Source: a virus. Taken from it: a DNA stretch of 40,032 nt. The stretch spans positions 1-40,032 of the IMG/VR virus record IMGVR_UViG_3300045975_000176; one strand, 5' to 3'. A program made the translations under genes and the position numbers. Shown here in pieces: positions 1,477 through 31,371 of the stretch; positions within the stretch are counted from its first letter, which is position 1; every line of letters starts with the position of its first letter. The notes beneath the pieces are model-generated. The model was not told where the DNA came from. It saw only the letters and a list, made by a program, of their open reading frames with translations, and ran no database searches.

Positions 1477-2376
1477 TTACGGCGCAAACGTGTCCGACGT
1501 GAGGCAGATGTGAATGGTGTAGCCGCCGCCGCTGGAGACGCTGCACCCGGTGCCGCGCTGCGTGCCGAGATACCGGATGACCACGCAGCCCGTCATGCCA
1601 TTCCCGCCGGCGCCGGTTCCGCCACCGCCGCCGCCACCGGCCCCGCACAGCGTCGCATTGCCGCCCGCGGCGTTGGCGCCCGATCCGCCCGTGCCGGCCC
1701 CTGTCCCGCCCGCGCCGCCCACGACGACGCCCGACCCCCCGCCGCCGCTGCCGTAGACGAACGTCGCGCCCGCGTAATCATTACTGTCGCCTTCGGCCCC
1801 GGCGCCACCCGTGCCGCCGCCCGCGGTCGTGCCATTGCTGCCCGTGCCGTTCGCGCCGCCCCCGCCACCGCCCGCGCTGTCTGCGCCCGCCGTGGAGACA
1901 CCGTTGCCGCCGTTGTGGCCGTCGTCGCCCACGCCACCAGTTACCGTGCCGCCGCCCGCGTCGCGCGAGCCACCGCCACCACCACCCGCCCCGCCGTCGC
2001 CGCCGCCCGCGCTATTCGCCGTGCCGCCGCGTCCGCCGAACCCGCCACCATCGGCCGTGACGCTGATGGTGCCGCCGATGAGCGTCGTGTCAGCGCCGGC
2101 CGTGCCGCTATTCCCACTGCTCCCGCCCGCGCCAGCCGCCCCAATCGTGACGGTCAGGGCCGCGCCGCCGCGCACGACCGTGGAGCTCCCGGTCAGCGCC
2201 TCGCCACCGCCCCCGCCACCGCCGGTCGCCGTGACGCCGTCGGTCGAATTGCCGCCGCCGCCGCCCGCACCCACCACGAGGTACTCGATGACGTACGTCT
2301 TGTTCACGCCGAGCAGGCGCATCAGTTGCGCCTCGCTCGAGGTCAGCGTCAGCGCGAGAAGCAGGAGCCAGCGCAT
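1477..2376 (-). CDS. Polyglycine adhesin-like protein with signal peptide (299 aa)
   Basis: Residues 1-17 form a short signal peptide (MRWLLLLALTLTSSEAQ, likely cut after SEA). A beta strand with the typical phage lead-in YVIEYLVVGAGGGGG follows at about 28-42. Residues 40-260 are a low-complexity Gly-rich domain with many GGGGG runs separated by short T/S/N/D segments, the composition expected for packed polyglycine-II helices as in some T-even receptor-binding adhesins. The C-terminus holds three cysteines (GCVVIRYLG, GCSVSSGGG, HICLTS). Start is the ATG abutting the TAA of the fibre gene upstream. Role in binding a host surface receptor is inferred from composition and place. Confidence 0.85.
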   Translation of the reverse strand: MRWLLLLALTLTSSEAQLMRLLGVNKTYVIEYLVVGAGGGGGNSTDGVTATGGGGGGGEALTGSSTVVRGGAALTVTIGAAGAGGSSGNSGTAGADTTLIGGTISVTADGGGFGGRGGTANSAGGGDGGAGGGGGGSRDAGGGTVTGGVGDDGHNGGNGVSTAGADSAGGGGGGANGTGSNGTTAGGGTGGAGAEGDSNDYAGATFVYGSGGGGSGVVVGGAGGTGAGTGGSGANAAGGNATLCGAGGGGGGGTGAGGNGMTGCVVIRYLGTQRGTGCSVSSGGGYTIHICLTSDTFAP

Positions 2377-3366
2377 TTAGAAGTTCTGCCCCGCCGTGAA
2401 GCAATACCAGTTCGTCCCGGCGTTGTAGGTAAGGCAGGTGAAGAAGTCCTTTTTGCCGTTGGTGCTCGTCATTGTCGGTGCGGCCGCGCCCGCCCACGCG
2501 ACGCTCGCTGGCCAGGTGACCGTCCGCAGCGTGCCATCCGCCGTGAAGACCAGCGTGAACGAGCCCGCCTTCCCGGTCGTCGGCGCGTTCGAAATCGTCA
2601 GCGTCGTGATGTTCGCGGTGAGCGCGACATCGAAGTGCGTCGCCGTCGACAGGTCCAGCGTCAGGGCATTCGCGCTGATCGTCGGCGCCGTGCGCGTTTC
2701 GGTGTAGGTCAGCAGGTCGTTGCGCGCGGTGAACGCGTTGGCCGTGCCGAGCATCGCCACGCCCGTGAGGTTCGTGCCCGACAGTGACGCGAAGTAGGTC
2801 GAGCTGATGGCGGGAATCTGGCCGGTGGCGCTGACAATACCGACGTTGCCGGAGCCGGCGTTGATGCCGCCCGCCACATCGAGCGCGTTGATGCCGGCGC
2901 CGAAGATGTTGGCCGTGGACCCCACGAAGAGGTCGGTGTTCGTGGCAATCGCGCCGGAGGCGTTGAAGGACCCCGCCACCACCGTGTTCCCGGTCGCCGC
3001 GGCGATCGTGACGTTCCCGCTGCCGATGTTGACGTCGCCGGCAATATCCACGGTCGAACCCGCGGTGAGTGCCCCTGAGAAATTGCCGAGGACGCTGTAG
3101 AAGGCCGCCCAGCGTGTTCCGCTGGCGCCCAGATCGCGCGTGTTGTTGCCGTCGGCGACGATGGCCCGGGTCGTCAGGGTGCCGGTCATGGTGCCGCCCG
3201 TGCGGTTCAGGGCGTTCGCGTAGACGGCATTGACGATGGTGTTCACCTCGTCGGGCGAAATAATCGTGCCGGCCGTGAAGGTGAACGGTGGGGAGCCGAG
3301 CTGCGCCGAGGCGACTCCGGTCGCCAGCAGCAGCGCAAGAGCGATTCCGAGCAGTCGGTTACGCAT
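2377..3366 (-). CDS. Putative tail fibre protein with signal peptide (329 aa)
   Basis: Residues 1-22 are a textbook Sec signal peptide (RNRLLGIALALLLATGVASAQ, cut after ASA). The rest is built from short beta-rich Gly/Ser/Thr/Asn repeats such as GDVNIGSGNVTIAAATGNTV and NTRDLGASGTRW, the pattern of elongated trimeric phage fibres that list decorations of the DLGASGxRW type. A more compact C-terminal part from about 225 contains FTLVFTADGTLRTVTWPASV and CLTYNAGTNWYCFTAG, resembling a phage fibre head domain. The ATG at 3366 overlaps the preceding stop by eight bases; no longer start keeps the signal peptide at the N-terminus. A signal peptide on a fibre is odd. Confidence 0.85.
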   Translation of the reverse strand: MRNRLLGIALALLLATGVASAQLGSPPFTFTAGTIISPDEVNTIVNAVYANALNRTGGTMTGTLTTRAIVADGNNTRDLGASGTRWAAFYSVLGNFSGALTAGSTVDIAGDVNIGSGNVTIAAATGNTVVAGSFNASGAIATNTDLFVGSTANIFGAGINALDVAGGINAGSGNVGIVSATGQIPAISSTYFASLSGTNLTGVAMLGTANAFTARNDLLTYTETRTAPTISANALTLDLSTATHFDVALTANITTLTISNAPTTGKAGSFTLVFTADGTLRTVTWPASVAWAGAAAPTMTSTNGKKDFFTCLTYNAGTNWYCFTAGQNF

Positions 3367-3676
3367 CGACGGTGTTCTCCCTGGCGGTGACGAAGACGAG
3401 GAGGGCACGCGTCCCATTCGCGCTCGCCAGCAGATAGGCGACGTCCTTCGTCCACAGATTCCCGACGGGCGTGTAGACGATGCCGCCCACTTGACTCAAT
3501 ACAACCATGCCGATGGGTATTTCGCCCATACCGTGGGCCACGTCGACGACCGTGCTGTTCGAGGGGAAGTACACCTCGAAGATCTTTGAACACGCCGCGA
3601 ACGGCCATTCAAAGGGCTGTCGGCGGTCCACCGCCACCAGGGCATCGGACGTCGGACGATCAACGGGCCGCGGCAT
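3359..3676 (-). CDS. Hypothetical tail-associated protein (105 aa)
   Basis: Begins three bases after the stop of the tail nozzle gene. It is beta-rich, with YFPSNSTVVDVAHGMGEIP and GIVYTPVGNLWTKDVAYLLA; the VxHGMG/P pattern followed by strands is common in small beta-sandwich phage tail proteins that sit next to fibres, but I cannot name a family. Its end overlaps the signal-peptide fibre gene downstream, implying translational coupling. Confidence 0.75.
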   Translation of the reverse strand: MPRPVDRPTSDALVAVDRRQPFEWPFAACSKIFEVYFPSNSTVVDVAHGMGEIPIGMVVLSQVGGIVYTPVGNLWTKDVAYLLASANGTRALLVFVTARENTVDA

Positions 3677-21311: not shown

Positions 21312-23876
21312 CTAGCGGCGGACCAGACTCCCCATCACGCCGCCCGGGCGTTTCTTGTGGCGCTTGTCGAGCGATTCGTAGTGCTGCCGCTCGAGGGCGG
21401 GCAGGTGCGCGTAGGGGTCGACGATGAGCGTGCGGTCCTGGAACGGACGCGCCTCGAAGAACCGGCCGATGTCCTCGTAGCAGTTATGAACCAGGAGGCC
21501 GTTGGCGAAGAACTCGTGCGCGTCTTCGACGGTTAGGTCATACACCGCGGCGCGCCCGCTTGGCCGCACGGTAGTAACACTTCGGGTCACCGCAGAAGCG
21601 CTTGTTCGGTCGCTTCGTGGCGAATCGAGCGCCGCACCCATCGCACCGGACAAAGCGCGTCGGCTTCGACTCTCGCTGTCGTTCCTCGAACGAACGATTG
21701 ATGCACTTGGCGGAACAATAATTGACGTCGCGCAGCTGGTCACCGGCGATGTCAGCGGGTCCCCCACACATCGCGCAGGTCGTGAGGACACGAGGGATTG
21801 CCAGCCGCGCTTCAGAAGCGTATCCAGCGTTCTCGCGACGCGCAGCGCGCTGGCGAGGAGTCGGATTCCTACTATGGAGCGAGAGATGCTGCTTTCGAGG
21901 CAAGAGTTCGAGATTGTCGGGATGGTTGTTTGCACGGTTCCCATCCTTGTGGTGCACATGACAGCCAAACGGCAGACGCCCGTGCGTGTCTCGCCACACG
22001 CGGCGGTGAAGGCGACCGTAGCCACGGCGCGCAAAGTAGCGACCGCATTTGTAATAGACCACGTCCCGCCACACCTGCGCTGTCTCTGACAGCACGATTG
22101 GAGCTTCGACCACAAGGAAACCTCTGTCGCGTAATACGGTATGAAGTCGTTGGATATTTCGTCGACACGGATGAATCCACGCGTTTTGTCAAAGATTCCA
22201 TGGTTCCCAGTGGCGCGCACGGCGCCGCCAGGTGTCACGACCTCGAACACCTCGGCATCTGGCGATGTCTGCCAGGCACGCAACACCCGCCGATAGCCTC
22301 GGCGCGTCAGGAGCCTGTCACCGGCCAGAATCCGCTCGATCGGCGTCAGTCCTTCGTCGGTGTGCACCAGCGTGCCCTCGGCGATGCAGTGGTTCTCGGA
22401 GTCTTCGTCCTCCACGTCGGGATCTTCCTCGTCCCATGGGATGTCCGGGACCGTGCGGATCGCCTCCGGGCACGCAGTCGTGATCGTCCAGTTCGGCAAC
22501 CCGTCGACGTTGGTCTGCAGGGCATCGAGCCAGCGCTGCGGCCGCGACTCGCGCGCCGGCCGTCCTGCGGCACCGAGCCGCACGTTGCAGATGTGCAGCA
22601 GCTCGTCGCAGTAGACCTCGTAGATGGACTTCGCGCGCCCCAGTTCCTCCCGGCTCGCCTTCATCGACGGGTCGATCACGATCCACTCGGGCTTGTAGTT
22701 CCGATGTTCGAGCAGCTGGCGAATCATCTGCGCTTGTTCCACGTCGCGCTTGCGGGGCATGTAGAACTCGAAGAACGTCCGCACGTGGCCACCGGGCAGG
22801 CCGGCATGGAGATGGAACGACCACGGGACGCCATAGCCATAGTCGACCGAGCCCCAGATCGGCGCTCCCGCCGGCGGCTTCCAATGCGCGTTGGGGATCA
22901 CGTGCCAGGGGATCACCTGACCGACCGACAGCGCCGCCGAGAGCGCCAGCAGATCCTCGTCGGTCTCGTGGATCATCTTCTTCTCGCGCCAGAACGGGCC
23001 GACGATCATCTGATCGTTGGCGTCCCAATCGCCCTCCGCCAGTTGCTTCGCCTTGTCGCCACCGAGCGCGTAGACCTTGGCCAGGTAGTGCGGATCGGCG
23101 TTGGCCAGCGCCATGTTGTCGTGGAACCACGCCGGGATGAACTGCCGCGTGGGCACGAACTCGGGTTTGCTCGGATCGCCGGGGAGCGGCAACGGGCGCC
23201 ACACCTCGAAGGGTTGCGGCGGCAGTCGGCCCGGGCCCAGCTCCTCGGGCCGAGGCCGCAAGAACCAGCGTTTGAGCCATCCATGGCCGACCCCGCCCGG
23301 GTTCGACATCAGGCGGATGCGCTTGCGCATGCCGAGACGCGCCGAGCGGACGCGCGTCGCCAGGTATTTCACCTGGAACTCGGTGAAGTGCGACGCCTCG
23401 TCGATGAACAGCGCGACCCACTGCGCCGACTGGTAGCTGTAGACATCCTTCTCGTGCTGCGCGTGACAGAACCAGAGCTGTGAGCCGTTCCAGAACGTCG
23501 CCACCAAATCCGAGGCATTGAACTTGGCGATGTAATCCGGCACGAGCAGCAGGAAGCGGCTGATGATCTCCTGCTTCAGTTCCTTCAACTTGCGGCGGAA
23601 GAACGCGACCTTGACGTTCGGGTTCTCGATGCAGATCGTGATGGCTTCGACCAGGCCGAACTCGGACTTGCCGCCACCGACGGCGCCGCCGTAGAAGAGG
23701 ACCTCGGCGACAGAGGCGTGCGCAAACGCCTGTTTCGGCTGCGGGACGCAGCGATCACGGCGGGGATGGCAGGGGGGATCGTGCACGCACTCGCCGGACG
23801 GGTCGGTATAGCCCCAATTCCAGCCGGCCCGAAGTGACGCGAGGCGTCGCGCCTCCTTCGAGCGCTTACCGCTCAT
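21312..23876 (-). CDS. terL: Terminase large subunit, interrupted by an intein (854 aa precursor)
   Basis: The ATPase and nuclease that packages phage DNA. Walker A is GGAVGGGKS at 63-71; Walker B is LFIDE at 156-160 followed by ASHFT. The RNase H-like nuclease starts at GSVDYGYGV (D345), with IVIDPSMK (D402) as a second acid. Residues 497-798 are an intein, placed within the conserved acid/His element ENH-CYEDIGRFF near the C-terminus of the nuclease; splicing would give about 552 residues, the usual size. The extended Cys/His N-terminus (CVHDPPCHPRRDRC) is unusual. An HNH gene lies in another frame inside the intein. ATGA overlap with the upstream gene. Confidence 0.92.
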   Translation of the reverse strand: MSGKRSKEARRLASLRAGWNWGYTDPSGECVHDPPCHPRRDRCVPQPKQAFAHASVAEVLFYGGAVGGGKSEFGLVEAITICIENPNVKVAFFRRKLKELKQEIISRFLLLVPDYIAKFNASDLVATFWNGSQLWFCHAQHEKDVYSYQSAQWVALFIDEASHFTEFQVKYLATRVRSARLGMRKRIRLMSNPGGVGHGWLKRWFLRPRPEELGPGRLPPQPFEVWRPLPLPGDPSKPEFVPTRQFIPAWFHDNMALANADPHYLAKVYALGGDKAKQLAEGDWDANDQMIVGPFWREKKMIHETDEDLLALSAALSVGQVIPWHVIPNAHWKPPAGAPIWGSVDYGYGVPWSFHLHAGLPGGHVRTFFEFYMPRKRDVEQAQMIRQLLEHRNYKPEWIVIDPSMKASREELGRAKSIYEVYCDELLHICNVRLGAAGRPARESRPQRWLDALQTNVDGLPNWTITTACPEAIRTVPDIPWDEEDPDVEDEDSENHCIAEGTLVHTDEGLTPIERILAGDRLLTRRGYRRVLRAWQTSPDAEVFEVVTPGGAVRATGNHGIFDKTRGFIRVDEISNDFIPYYATEVSLWSKLQSCCQRQRRCGGTWSITNAVATLRAVATVAFTAACGETRTGVCRLAVMCTTRMGTVQTTIPTISNSCLESSISRSIVGIRLLASALRVARTLDTLLKRGWQSLVSSRPARCVGDPLTSPVTSCATSIIVPPSASIVRSRNDSESRSRRALSGAMGAALDSPRSDRTSASAVTRSVTTVRPSGRAAVYDLTVEDAHEFFANGLLVHNCYEDIGRFFEARPFQDRTLIVDPYAHLPALERQHYESLDKRHKKRPGGVMGSLVRR
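21483..22388 (-). mobile_element. TerL intein (302 residues in frame)
   Basis: Begins with Cys497 (CIAEGTLVHTDEGLTPIERI, block A) and has a block-B-type TGNH at 556-559. It ends with VYDLTVEDAHEFFANG then LLVHN (blocks F and G); the next residue is Cys799. Splicing residues Cys1, His-Asn and +1 Cys are all present. Splicing segments add up to roughly 112 residues, so it is a mini-intein whose middle, about residues 588-778 in this frame, is the other-frame reading of an HNH gene and should carry no endonuclease of its own. Confidence 0.88.
21538..22113 (-). CDS. HNH homing-type endonuclease nested in the TerL intein (191 aa)
   Basis: Read in the -1 frame relative to TerL. Residues about 15-80 hold a group-I-intron-like HNH domain: DVVYYKCGRYFARR, LHRRVWRDTHGRLPFG, CHVHHKDGNRANNHPDNLEL, then KQHLSLHS. 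Zinc-finger units follow (CAMCGG, CSAKC, CDGCG, CGDPKC). The GTG start has GAGG about seven bases upstream. Its TGA falls inside VYDL (Y779/D780 of TerL), exactly where the intein's block F starts. The frame is open upstream of the GTG without a start codon, so a frameshifted product from the intein is another possible route. Expected to cut an intein-less terL and drive intein homing. Confidence 0.85.
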   Translation of the reverse strand: MVEAPIVLSETAQVWRDVVYYKCGRYFARRGYGRLHRRVWRDTHGRLPFGCHVHHKDGNRANNHPDNLELLPRKQHLSLHSRNPTPRQRAARRENAGYASEARLAIPRVLTTCAMCGGPADIAGDQLRDVNYCSAKCINRSFEERQRESKPTRFVRCDGCGARFATKRPNKRFCGDPKCYYRAAKRARRGV

Positions 23877-28494: not shown

Positions 28495-31371
28495 TTAGGC
28501 CGCCTTCCGTGCGCGGTGTCCGAGGTTGGCCGCCAGCAGCGCAGCCGCGACGTGCGGCGGCACGGAGTTGCCACACATCCGAGTCTGCGCCTTCTTCGAG
28601 AGCTTCGTGGGCACGGGCAAGCCGAGGTCAGTGACCGTGACGACGTGTTCGATTTCGTAGTCGTGCTCAACGACTAGGCGGATCAAGAGTGAGCTCGCGC
28701 TTGACGTTGGCGCGAGAGTGGACCCACCGATGGCATCGAGCACAAAGGAGCACAAGGTTGTCCAGTGCGAGGCGAAGCTCTGGGAAGGTTGCCCATCCGC
28801 CGATATGGTGCACTGCGTATCCGGGACCGCGGCGAACCCGGTCCAGGCATCGCCGGCAACAGCCACCGTCTCGCTGGAAGACGGCGCGGCAGGCCCTGAG
28901 CCATGGCTTTGATGCGTAGAAAGCAAGCTGCTCTGGCGTACAGCCGCCCTTCCAGTTTGGCGCGCGTGGACCGGTAAAGAATGCTCGCGAGCAAGCATTC
29001 GAGCAAAATCGCCGATGTCGGTAGGTAGGGGAAACGAGACGCCCTCGGCCGCAGAACTCGCAGACGAGGGTGACTTTTCTGGACTGCGTAGCACCAGAAC
29101 GTGCTGCCCGCAGTCGATACGCGCATTCACGACTACAGGTGCGACGTTGTGGGCTTGAGGCTCGGACGAGATGTGGCCGCGCGCAGACTTCGCACGGTCT
29201 CGACTCGCGAGGGTTTGGCGGCCGCCCGCCGCCTGGGTTGCGTGGTCGCGCCATACCTGAATCTCCGCCTCGGTCTTGAAACTAGGAAAACCCTGGCAGC
29301 GGAACAGCTCGCGCGGGGTCAGCATGCGCATCCCGATGTCGACGATGGCGTATTCCTCGCCGGCAATCGTGACCGTGACCAGCCCGAAGCGCTCCTTGGT
29401 GGTGAGCGTGTCCACCGGCGCGTCGAGCGGACGGCCGGAGACGTTGGTCCCGAAGTACTTGACCAGGAAGGCCGTGACGAGCGCCTTGTTCTCGCGGCAG
29501 ACGATGGTGTCGACCGGGCGCTGGAGCTTCTGACCGGTGGCCTCGTGACCGCCGTTGTGCTTCGCCAGGAACGCGGCGACGAGCCCGAAGCGGTTGGAGG
29601 TATGCAGGCTGAAGTCGATGCACTCGGCCGCCGTGCGATAGGGCTGGCGCTTCGGGCCGTGCGTGGGTTTCGGCCACACGATCGGCTGACCATCGAAGCG
29701 GACAATGACGAACAATCGCTTGCGGCGCGTCGGGGCGCCGTGCTCGTCAGCCACCAGCTCGCGATACTCCACCACGCCGCCGAGGTTCTGGAGACGCGAC
29801 ACCCAGCGACGGAAACTCTGCCCCTTCTTCGCGGCGTTGGGTCGCCCGTCCTTGCCGAGCGGACACCAATCGCGGAACTCTTCCACGTTCTCCATGAACA
29901 GCATGTCGGGCGGGCGTCCGGTCGCTTTCTTCAGCTCGACGACGCAGCGGACCAGCTCCCACGCGAGCCCACGAACGCGACGCGCGCGGTTGCGGTCGCG
30001 GAACGGTCGACCGCCGCGCGCCTTCGAGTGATAGGTGCAGTTGTGCACGATGATGCCGTCCGCGACGAAGCTCTCGTCTTGGGCGACGCTCAGGTTGTAG
30101 ACCGTGAACAACTCGGAGCCGGTATGGATGCGTTCGCGGATGGGCGCCCACAGCAGGCCGTCCTCGACCGCAGTGTGCGCGTGCGATTCGGTGATGCTCT
30201 CGCGCCATTTCACCGACCAGGCTGGACGCACGTTGACGCGCCGCCCAGCGATCTCGTCGGGCTGATTGGTCCTCAGCACCACGTGCGCGGCGTGACCCAG
30301 CGAGGCGACCAGCGCCTTCAGCCCGAACGCGAGCGCCTTGGAAACGGTCGTCGCGATTGTCAGCGGCGTGCCGACGCCGTGCGCTACGCACCCGTCTCCG
30401 GACAGGTAGCCATCCAGAAACCACTGACGCGACTCGACCGACAGCCCAAGCAACCACCCAGGGATGGTTTTCTCTGCAGCACCGTGGCCGAAGTGCTCAC
30501 GGAGCCATTCAACTAATCCCCGATGGCTCGTCGAGAACTGATAGGCGGTCCCTGTCTCCCGCTCAGTCCACGCCAACTCCCCTGACCGGCTGCGTGTGCC
30601 AGCGCGTGGCCACTGCGCCAGCGACTCACGGAGGTCGTCCGCCTCGTGGCGTCCGCAGGTGAGGACGAGTTCTGCGCGCACGTCTGTGAGCCGCGTCCAG
30701 CCGTCGGCGACGTAGCGACCGGCAAGCCAAAGCAGTTTGAAGTCGACCTGTAGTTCACGCTCGCGATGCACCGGCACCGCAGGCGCAGCCGCCCCTGGGA
30801 ATGTCGTCGGCGACGCCCAGTACTGGCCGCGCTCAAGGCTCTTCGCAGGCGCCCAGTACGCCTGGCTCAGGCGCCTCGCCATTCCGGCGCCGCTCGTGCG
30901 GTGCTTCACGAGGAAGGGATGCTCTCCACTGACGAACAGGCCGGGGTGACCGAGCCCACGCACCTGGAGTAGCGGGCGCTCAGTGCTCATCGTGTTCGTG
31001 ACGCGGCGCCACCGTTGCTCGTGGGTCAGCACTTCCTCGCCAATTTCGATTTCCTCGATCGGCACGTAGCCGCGTCGCGCGAGCACCATCGTGCCGGCCG
31101 GGAAACAGTCAGGCGAGAACCAGGCGAAGCGGCAGTGCTTGCCCGTGAGCAACGTGCCGTAGTCGACCGAGCGGATGTTGGTCTGCACGTGGCGCGTCTT
31201 CGGATGGTTCGCGGCGTGCATCGCGAGCGCTTCCGCGTCGTGGTTGATGGCCACGTCGGGCGAGCGGCCGGTGGCCCACTCGATCCCGACCGAGGCGCCA
31301 CCACCACCCGCGAACCCGTCGATACAGCCTTCGTCGTCGTAGAGCCGGACTTGCGGAACGCGGGGCTTCAT
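28495..31371 (-). CDS. DNA cytosine-C5 methyltransferase with an intein and a nested HNH insertion (958 aa precursor)
   Basis: Motif I is DGFAGGGGASVGIEWA (18-33). Motif IV is FSPD-C, split by the intein so that the catalytic cysteine (residue 445) is the first residue after it. Motif VI is ENVEEFRDW (about 494-502), VIII is RRKRLFVI (549-556), IX is LTPRELFRCQGFP (684-696), X is GNSVPP near the end. Residues 89-444 are the intein. Residues 697-901 (615 bases, a multiple of three) are an inserted Ser/Ala-rich segment that is the other-frame reading of an HNH gene. Without both, about 397 residues remain, the family's normal size. It would methylate phage DNA against host restriction. Confidence 0.9.
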   Translation of the reverse strand: MKPRVPQVRLYDDEGCIDGFAGGGGASVGIEWATGRSPDVAINHDAEALAMHAANHPKTRHVQTNIRSVDYGTLLTGKHCRFAWFSPDCFPAGTMVLARRGYVPIEEIEIGEEVLTHEQRWRRVTNTMSTERPLLQVRGLGHPGLFVSGEHPFLVKHRTSGAGMARRLSQAYWAPAKSLERGQYWASPTTFPGAAAPAVPVHRERELQVDFKLLWLAGRYVADGWTRLTDVRAELVLTCGRHEADDLRESLAQWPRAGTRSRSGELAWTERETGTAYQFSTSHRGLVEWLREHFGHGAAEKTIPGWLLGLSVESRQWFLDGYLSGDGCVAHGVGTPLTIATTVSKALAFGLKALVASLGHAAHVVLRTNQPDEIAGRRVNVRPAWSVKWRESITESHAHTAVEDGLLWAPIRERIHTGSELFTVYNLSVAQDESFVADGIIVHNCTYHSKARGGRPFRDRNRARRVRGLAWELVRCVVELKKATGRPPDMLFMENVEEFRDWCPLGKDGRPNAAKKGQSFRRWVSRLQNLGGVVEYRELVADEHGAPTRRKRLFVIVRFDGQPIVWPKPTHGPKRQPYRTAAECIDFSLHTSNRFGLVAAFLAKHNGGHEATGQKLQRPVDTIVCRENKALVTAFLVKYFGTNVSGRPLDAPVDTLTTKERFGLVTVTIAGEEYAIVDIGMRMLTPRELFRCQGFPSFKTEAEIQVWRDHATQAAGGRQTLASRDRAKSARGHISSEPQAHNVAPVVVNARIDCGQHVLVLRSPEKSPSSASSAAEGVSFPLPTDIGDFARMLAREHSLPVHARQTGRAAVRQSSLLSTHQSHGSGPAAPSSSETVAVAGDAWTGFAAVPDTQCTISADGQPSQSFASHWTTLCSFVLDAIGGSTLAPTSSASSLLIRLVVEHDYEIEHVVTVTDLGLPVPTKLSKKAQTRMCGNSVPPHVAAALLAANLGHRARKAA
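28667..29254 (-). CDS. HNH endonuclease nested in the methyltransferase gene (195 aa)
   Basis: Read in the -1 frame relative to the methyltransferase. N-terminal zinc-finger units (CEVCARP, CSRECAYR, CEFCGRGR, CSNACSRAF) lead to an HNH nuclease domain (CRRCLDRVRRGPGYAVHHIG then LDNLVLLCARCHRWVH). ATG 29254 has GGAG eight bases upstream. Its TGA at 28667-28669 overlaps the codons where conserved methyltransferase sequence returns (GTT-GAG; EHDYEIEH). A 6-bp repeat CCTAGT occurs at both borders. No room for a group I intron core. It is likely a free-standing homing-type nuclease gene lodged between motif IX and X. Confidence 0.85.
   Translation of the reverse strand: MARPRNPGGGRPPNPRESRPCEVCARPHLVRASSPQRRTCSRECAYRLRAARSGATQSRKVTLVCEFCGRGRLVSPTYRHRRFCSNACSRAFFTGPRAPNWKGGCTPEQLAFYASKPWLRACRAVFQRDGGCCRRCLDRVRRGPGYAVHHIGGWATFPELRLALDNLVLLCARCHRWVHSRANVKRELTLDPPSR
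30040..31107 (-). mobile_element. Methyltransferase intein with LAGLIDADG motifs (356 aa)
   Basis: Starts at Cys89 (CFPAGTMVLARRGYVPIEEI, block A), with SGEH (148-151) in place of block B TxxH, and ends FTVYNLSVAQDESF then VADGIIVHN; the next residue is Cys445. The endonuclease domain has two dodecapeptide-like motifs, LLWLAGRYVADGW (214-225) and QWFLDGYLSGDG (316-327). Thus it is a full intein with an in-frame homing endonuclease, inserted at the invariant catalytic residue of motif IV. Confidence 0.92.

Follow-up and report, generated by a model that had tools for sequence, protein, structure and literature searches.

An HNH endonuclease gene nested out of frame in a phage terminase intein and its sense and antisense relatives

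Overview

In a 40,032-nucleotide stretch of viral DNA (IMG/VR virus record IMGVR_UViG_3300045975_000176; hereafter the window) we found a gene for the large terminase subunit (terL) that is interrupted by an intein, and within the DNA of this intein a gene for an HNH endonuclease that is read in a different frame. This locus is very probably a mobile intein that divides splicing and homing between two overlapping genes, each translated on its own. In the mechanism that we infer, the terL frame would encode the two halves of a Hint domain with a long intervening linker, predicted to be disordered, and self-excision of this domain would leave a 552-aa terminase. Translation from an internal GTG, preceded by a putative ribosome-binding site and read one base back, would yield a free HNH nuclease from the linker DNA. 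The nuclease would presumably cut intein-less terL at the insertion site, upon which the whole element would be copied. Selection would preserve the HNH protein and bar stops from the terL frame, and would otherwise leave the linker peptide unconstrained. Many related phage inteins appear to follow the same scheme, except that their HNH gene is antisense to terL, and the recurrence of the layout in many unrelated phages argues for a stable architecture and not an accident.

Anatomy of the terL intein and its nested gene

The features of the locus are compiled in Table 1. The terL product matched the terminase large subunit in PHROG (7e-40) and, in Pfam, Terminase_6N (2e-7) and Intein_splicing (2.8e-9). 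In an alignment of 14 sequences the nucleophile at intein position 1 (block A, C497 of the precursor) as well as T60 and H63 of the block B TxxH motif were invariant. The C-terminus of the intein reads ...VYDLTVEDAHEFFANGLLVHN and is followed by Cys, so that the His-Asn end of block G and the Cys at +1 are both present (LLVHN/C; NCBIfam TIGR01443 intein_Cterm, 3e-8). The first-pass annotation, made from the sequence alone, had placed the splicing blocks in the terL frame, and this was borne out by the Intein_splicing and intein_Cterm matches and by the conserved residues of blocks A, B, F and G. It had also described the terL frame as open through the roughly 190 codons of the nested gene. This is indeed the case: a single 854-codon ORF runs through the locus, and the halves of the intein are not encoded by separate genes as they would be in a split intein. 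Removal of the intein leaves a joined extein that corresponds to the 552-aa terminase.

Table 1. Features of the terL intein locus in the window
Feature	Position	Strand	Description
terL precursor ORF	21312..23876	-	large terminase + intein, 854 aa, no stop
N-extein	22389..23876	-	TerL residues 1-496, ending ...DSENH
Intein	21483..22388	-	precursor residues 497-798, 302 aa, Cys1 to ...LLVHN, +1 = Cys
Intein N-terminal splicing region	22107..22388	-	blocks A + B, residues 1-94; Cys1, Thr60-x-x-His63
GAGG, putative ribosome-binding site of nested gene	22121..22124	-	7 nt 5' of GTG
Nested HNH endonuclease gene	21538..22113	-	191 aa, GTG to TGA, -1 frame (offset 2) relative to terL
HNH core motif	21904..21960	-	HVHHKDGNRANNHPDNLEL; HNH residues 52-70, from alignment
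HNH stop TGA	21538..21540	-	last base of Tyr283 + first two of Asp284, block F
Intein C-terminal splicing region	21483..21584	-	blocks F + G, residues 269-302
C-extein	21315..21482	-	CYEDIGRFFEARPF..., 56 aa

The nested frame matched HNH_3 (PF13392, 6.7e-15; motif HHKDGN...NHPDNLEL) in Pfam and family 15471, HNH, in PHROG (1e-24). The nuclease is thus encoded in the -1 frame and not in the frame of the intein, where a canonical endonuclease-containing intein carries it. The out-of-frame position of this gene inside the TerL intein, its coordinates, its own GTG and GAGG, and a stop codon that falls exactly at block F, being built from the codons of two block F residues, had all been described correctly in the first pass. 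The C-terminal splicing region overlaps the 3' end of the HNH gene up to intein residue 284, and an antisense ORF of 195 aa also spans the nested region. A second intein was encoded elsewhere in the window (28495-31371, minus strand) in a C5 DNA methyltransferase gene; its layout is canonical with in-frame LAGLIDADG-like motifs (Hint_2 6e-6, LAGLIDADG_3 1e-3).

AlphaFold modelled residues 1-94 and 269-302 of the window intein as a Hint fold, mostly at pLDDT 85-96 (85-93 across residues 271-302), and gave the nested stretch a pLDDT below 50. The same pattern was obtained for an intein with an antisense HNH gene (L016; Hint halves above 85, nested stretch below 50). Best Foldseek matches of the window intein were the gp41-1 intein (2.7e-6) and DnaB inteins, and the matches overall were inteins (gp41-1, DnaB, RecA, DnaE). 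The linker encoded by the nested stretch is predicted from these models to be disordered.

Empty insertion sites

Alignment with intein-free TerL homologues had been proposed as a check in the first pass, and three such relatives (L184, L185 and L187; 60-67% identical) revealed a codon-exact empty site. They read uninterrupted ...SENH/AYEDVGRFFEARPF, and the window reads ...SENH/intein/CYEDIGRFFEARPF, with the +1 Cys found only in the occupied gene. A second case was provided by two sister phages: the antisense-nested intein of Pseudoalteromonas phage PHS3 is absent codon-exactly from phage AL, and the TerL proteins of the two are about 99% identical. Downstream of the site their DNA is 100% identical over 180 nt, and in 60-nt blocks further away the identity is 85-100%. 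As far as sequence can tell, this pattern fits homing with co-conversion; alternatively, the intein may have been lost in AL.

Recurrence among phages

A search with the window HNH matched two loci, L004 (49% identical) and L005 (37%), both inside TerL inteins whose frame is open throughout and with an HNH offset identical to that of the window. In further matches the HNH gene of the TerL intein was antisense to terL. More loci were gathered with profiles built from sense and from antisense HNHs and classified by home-made HMMs for the intein N region, the intein C region and the HNHs, and the HNHs, mostly from metagenomic contigs, were clustered at 80% identity. At least 15 clusters were sense-nested, all in the -1 frame and with identities to the window down to 37% (about 31-38% in cultured phages), and at least 59 were antisense-nested, all in one phase (codon position 1 opposite position 1). 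The remaining clusters comprised three with intein halves in separate ORFs and one with an in-frame nuclease (L006). Two loci with weaker C-region scores (L044 and L053) were also sense-nested and come in addition to the 15 clusters.

Cultured phages were found for both orientations: Tetrasphaera phage TJE1 carries a sense-nested gene, and Pectobacterium phage Ymer as well as PHS3 carry antisense-nested ones. Intein-bearing cultured phages were recovered by the HNH query, whereas a tblastn search of cultured phages with the antisense-type intein L016 gave no match. A scan of bacterial genomes yielded few relatives, one of which (L146) repeats an IMG/VR contig.

The recurrence bears on the possibility that sequencing or assembly indels had shifted an ordinary in-frame HNH out of frame. 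Standard inteins do have their nuclease in frame, as in L006, but the -1 offset of the window is also present in near-identical contigs from other samples (L002 and L003), in the at least 15 divergent clusters and in the public genomes of phages TJE1 and LS06-2018-MD07, and antisense nesting is impossible to produce by indels. Since independent contigs and cultured phages show the same relation of frames, we attribute practically no probability to an indel error, which the first-pass annotation had itself named as a threat to its reading.

Several relatives showed further peculiarities. In L056 (1581-4649; the same as L113) a single TerL ORF contains two inteins, the one in the P-loop with an antisense HNH and the one in the nuclease domain with a sense HNH in the -1 frame. 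TerL of L044 (804-4751) also holds two inteins, the first with in-frame LAGLIDADG-like motifs and the second with a sense-nested HNH. An antisense-nested intein in L124 (2816-3688) apparently resides in a helicase-like protein and not in a terminase (context DCGLGKTPMQLVWAE). In the GenBank record of PHS3 (L143, KX912252; terL at 1541-3667) the terL annotation covers only the part 3' of the intein and the HNH has an entry of its own, so that the full intein-containing terL ORF was overlooked; for TJE1, LS06-2018-MD07 and Ymer the records show no annotation of the nested genes. The antisense phase used in all 59 clusters (among the matches listed) is not the easiest one to keep open, which would be the phase whose stops depend only on the Leu and Ser codons of the HNH. 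The one shared antisense phase points to a single origin.

An intein frame free of stops

It had been estimated in the first pass that random DNA would stay open over the nested region about 1% of the time. We corrected this value to 0.3% for random DNA of window composition over 190 codons, a null model that is itself improper, as it ignores the need to encode the HNH protein. Under a stricter null model, in which the HNH protein and its codon counts were held and synonymous codons permuted (run on the near-identical copy L002), the terL frame remained open in 12.8% of permutations, and the open frame of the window by itself is therefore weak evidence. One might thus suppose that the open terL frame is meaningless, long overlapping ORFs being frequent in GC-rich DNA, and this window-only probability of 0.13 as well as the other long spurious ORFs overlapping the region would agree with such a chance origin. 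The family as a whole speaks against it. Intein-frame stops were absent from 15 of 15 sense-nested clusters, for which permutation expects 0.2-3, and from 59 of 59 antisense-nested clusters among the matches listed, for which it expects 2-10 each; this includes clusters from AT-rich genomes with 5-10 stops expected and none found. The summed log10 probability under synonymous-codon permutation was -12 for the sense and -184 for the antisense clusters (among the matches listed), with clusters taken as independent, which is roughly fair because HNH third positions have strongly diverged between them. We consider a chance origin to be of vanishing probability.

HNHs of related families that lie outside inteins or in split inteins had stops in the corresponding frames, with none of 7 open as against 17 of 17 for nested relatives, whose nested status is defined partly by both intein halves sharing one open frame. 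Among the matches listed, the frame was unbroken in every antisense locus for which both intein halves were detected. As for stops in the terL frame of homologues, named in the first pass as evidence that would speak against dual coding, these were confined to loci in which the intein is absent or split into separate genes. The proposal that the need for protein splicing keeps this dual-coding DNA open is thereby strongly supported, through the family more than through the single locus of the window.

The open frame also bears on whether the nested part might be a group I or group II RNA intron that carries an HNH gene inside a mini-intein. HNH genes are often intron-borne, as is generally known, but an intron would need no open terL frame, yet the frame is always open. 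Moreover, neither the window nor 14 relatives contained a match to an Rfam family at its gathering score, and the intein had only a chance-level Rfam match at E<1. An intron is accordingly an extremely improbable explanation.

Selection on the two frames

A comparison of selection in both frames had likewise been recommended in the first pass. Between the window copy and L035 the HNH is 69% identical and the intein frame in the overlap 44%, with 0.25, 0.18 and 0.52 changes per codon at HNH positions 1, 2 and 3. We read this wobble pattern as the mark of a selected HNH protein. The linker peptide drifts because each HNH third position coincides with a second position in the intein frame.

For the antisense type we compared Pectobacterium phage Ymer with Setonix or Pappous by counting synonymous and nonsynonymous codons. 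In the terL/intein frame the ratios were 14:0 in the N-extein, 5:0 in the N-terminal and 7:1 in the C-terminal part of the intein, and 123:14 in the C-extein. The overlap gave 9:17 in the intein frame and is stop-free in both frames. The splicing blocks are hence under selection and the linker is not, except for staying open. In the HNH frame the overlap gave 10:14, which indicates little purifying selection, and some copies may therefore be decaying.

Expression of the nested gene

All contiguous sense-nested genes lie in the -1 frame, which would also be compatible with an HNH made as a fusion to the N half of the intein by programmed -1 ribosomal frameshifting. In two relatives (L004 and L041), however, a stop lies a few codons 5' of the HNH start and therefore leaves almost no room to shift. 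Furthermore, the start position is conserved (GTG-GTC-GAA in the window, ATG-GTT-GAA in L035), many members have a Shine-Dalgarno (SD) sequence, and the antisense relatives could not use such a mechanism. We consider frameshifting very unlikely and favor separate translation of the nuclease.

Among the matches listed, 33 of 58 antisense HNHs had an SD of at least 5 nt, and in 20 of 58 it was significant at p<=0.05, where 2.9 were expected (binomial 3e-12). No recognisable SD was found for the sense-nested genes of L031, L037 and L052. Sigma-70-like promoters (at least 10 of 12 positions) were located upstream on the HNH strand in 13 of 61 cases and on the other strand in 2 of 61 (p 0.004; among the matches listed). 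In PHS3, for example, TTGACA-17-GATAAT lies inside the intein and ends 31 nt 5' of the ATG. These signals are suggestive of a promoter belonging to the antisense HNH genes themselves. A sigma-70 scan of the window region gave no promoter, as chance predicts.

Nested, split and free-standing nucleases

Related HNHs were also encountered outside of contiguous inteins. In L036, L049 and L050 the TerL-IntN, HNH and IntC-TerL genes follow one another closely as separate ORFs; IntN and IntC still share a frame modulo 3, although many stops lie between them. Vibrio phage 1.245.O (L032) has a similar TerL intein split around an HNH. L033 and L039 encode a free-standing HNH immediately behind an intein-less terL, and L038 was likewise classed as free-standing. 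Together with the nested loci, three states therefore coexist among related HNHs. The kept phase suggests that the split forms derive from contiguous ones.

The first-pass annotation had viewed the locus as a step between an intein and a free-standing nuclease. This stands in so far as related HNHs occur nested, between split halves and free-standing, and the same observation could favor a short-lived transition, in which a free-standing HNH is a recent arrival in a mini-intein or the nuclease is being lost from an intein. The direction implied by a step finds no support in the tree: in the poorly resolved phylogeny of sense-type HNHs the nested, split and free states required 6 changes, no better than with shuffled labels, and the states are not ordered by the tree. 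Nesting is widespread, common in divergent phages and apparently stable, and the strongly diverged wobble positions across nested phages argue for long persistence. We therefore regard a short-lived transition as unlikely and the nested intein as a lasting arrangement.

Comparison with known systems and significance

Textbook inteins combine a splicing domain with a nuclease domain in the same frame. Canonical maxi-inteins (PI-SceI type; L006 in our set) resemble the window intein in their Hint domain, in having the nuclease stretch flanked by blocks B and F, in precise insertion into a conserved extein motif and in presumed homing. Unlike in these, the nuclease of the window type is encoded out of frame or antisense, would be translated apart and would remain outside the intein polypeptide. 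Fractured genes, in which, as Dassa and co-workers reportedly described in 2009, a nuclease gene separates the two parts of a split intein, have in common with the window a separately translated nuclease gene between intein halves. Fractured genes are split, as are the separated halves in L036, L049, L050 and L032, whereas the window intein is one open frame.

The ShiLan domain and the Pacc40 insertion were described in mycobacteriophage DNA methylases in 2025 (PMC11855218). Both comprise an out-of-frame HNH (with a GTG start in ShiLan) in an insertion without host-frame stops and are presumed to home (PMC11855218); of the published elements, ShiLan comes closest to the window. The ShiLan and Pacc40 insertions have no detectable intein splicing domain, whereas the window has conserved blocks A, B, F and G and its host-frame product matches Intein_splicing and Hint. 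The word 'antisense' is absent from PMC11855218. Our literature search returned no true intein with a nuclease gene that is antisense or out of frame; the only relevant items were PMC11855218 and a genome announcement (PMC12613952). A preprint on Actinobacteriophage inteins with non-canonical architecture (Gosselin et al. 2025, cited in PMC11855218) suggests by its title unusual phage intein layouts, as found here, and going by that title it may already cover part of the class of inteins with nested HNH genes.

We tentatively propose a widespread and previously undescribed class of mobile inteins in which nuclease and splicing genes overlap, mostly on opposite strands and with a promoter and ribosome-binding site belonging to the nuclease gene. 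The nuclease might in this way be decoupled from late terminase expression, and the class might be a source of split inteins once stops accumulate in the linker. The recurrence of out-of-frame and opposite-strand nucleases implies that splicing and homing need share neither a polypeptide nor a promoter. The nested layout accounts for the annotation errors seen in PHS3, where terL is curtailed, and in TJE1, LS06-2018-MD07 and Ymer, where the nested gene is missing from the record. Nested inteins further supply long overlapping gene pairs with measurable constraints, and they represent a concrete and testable path by which split inteins might arise.
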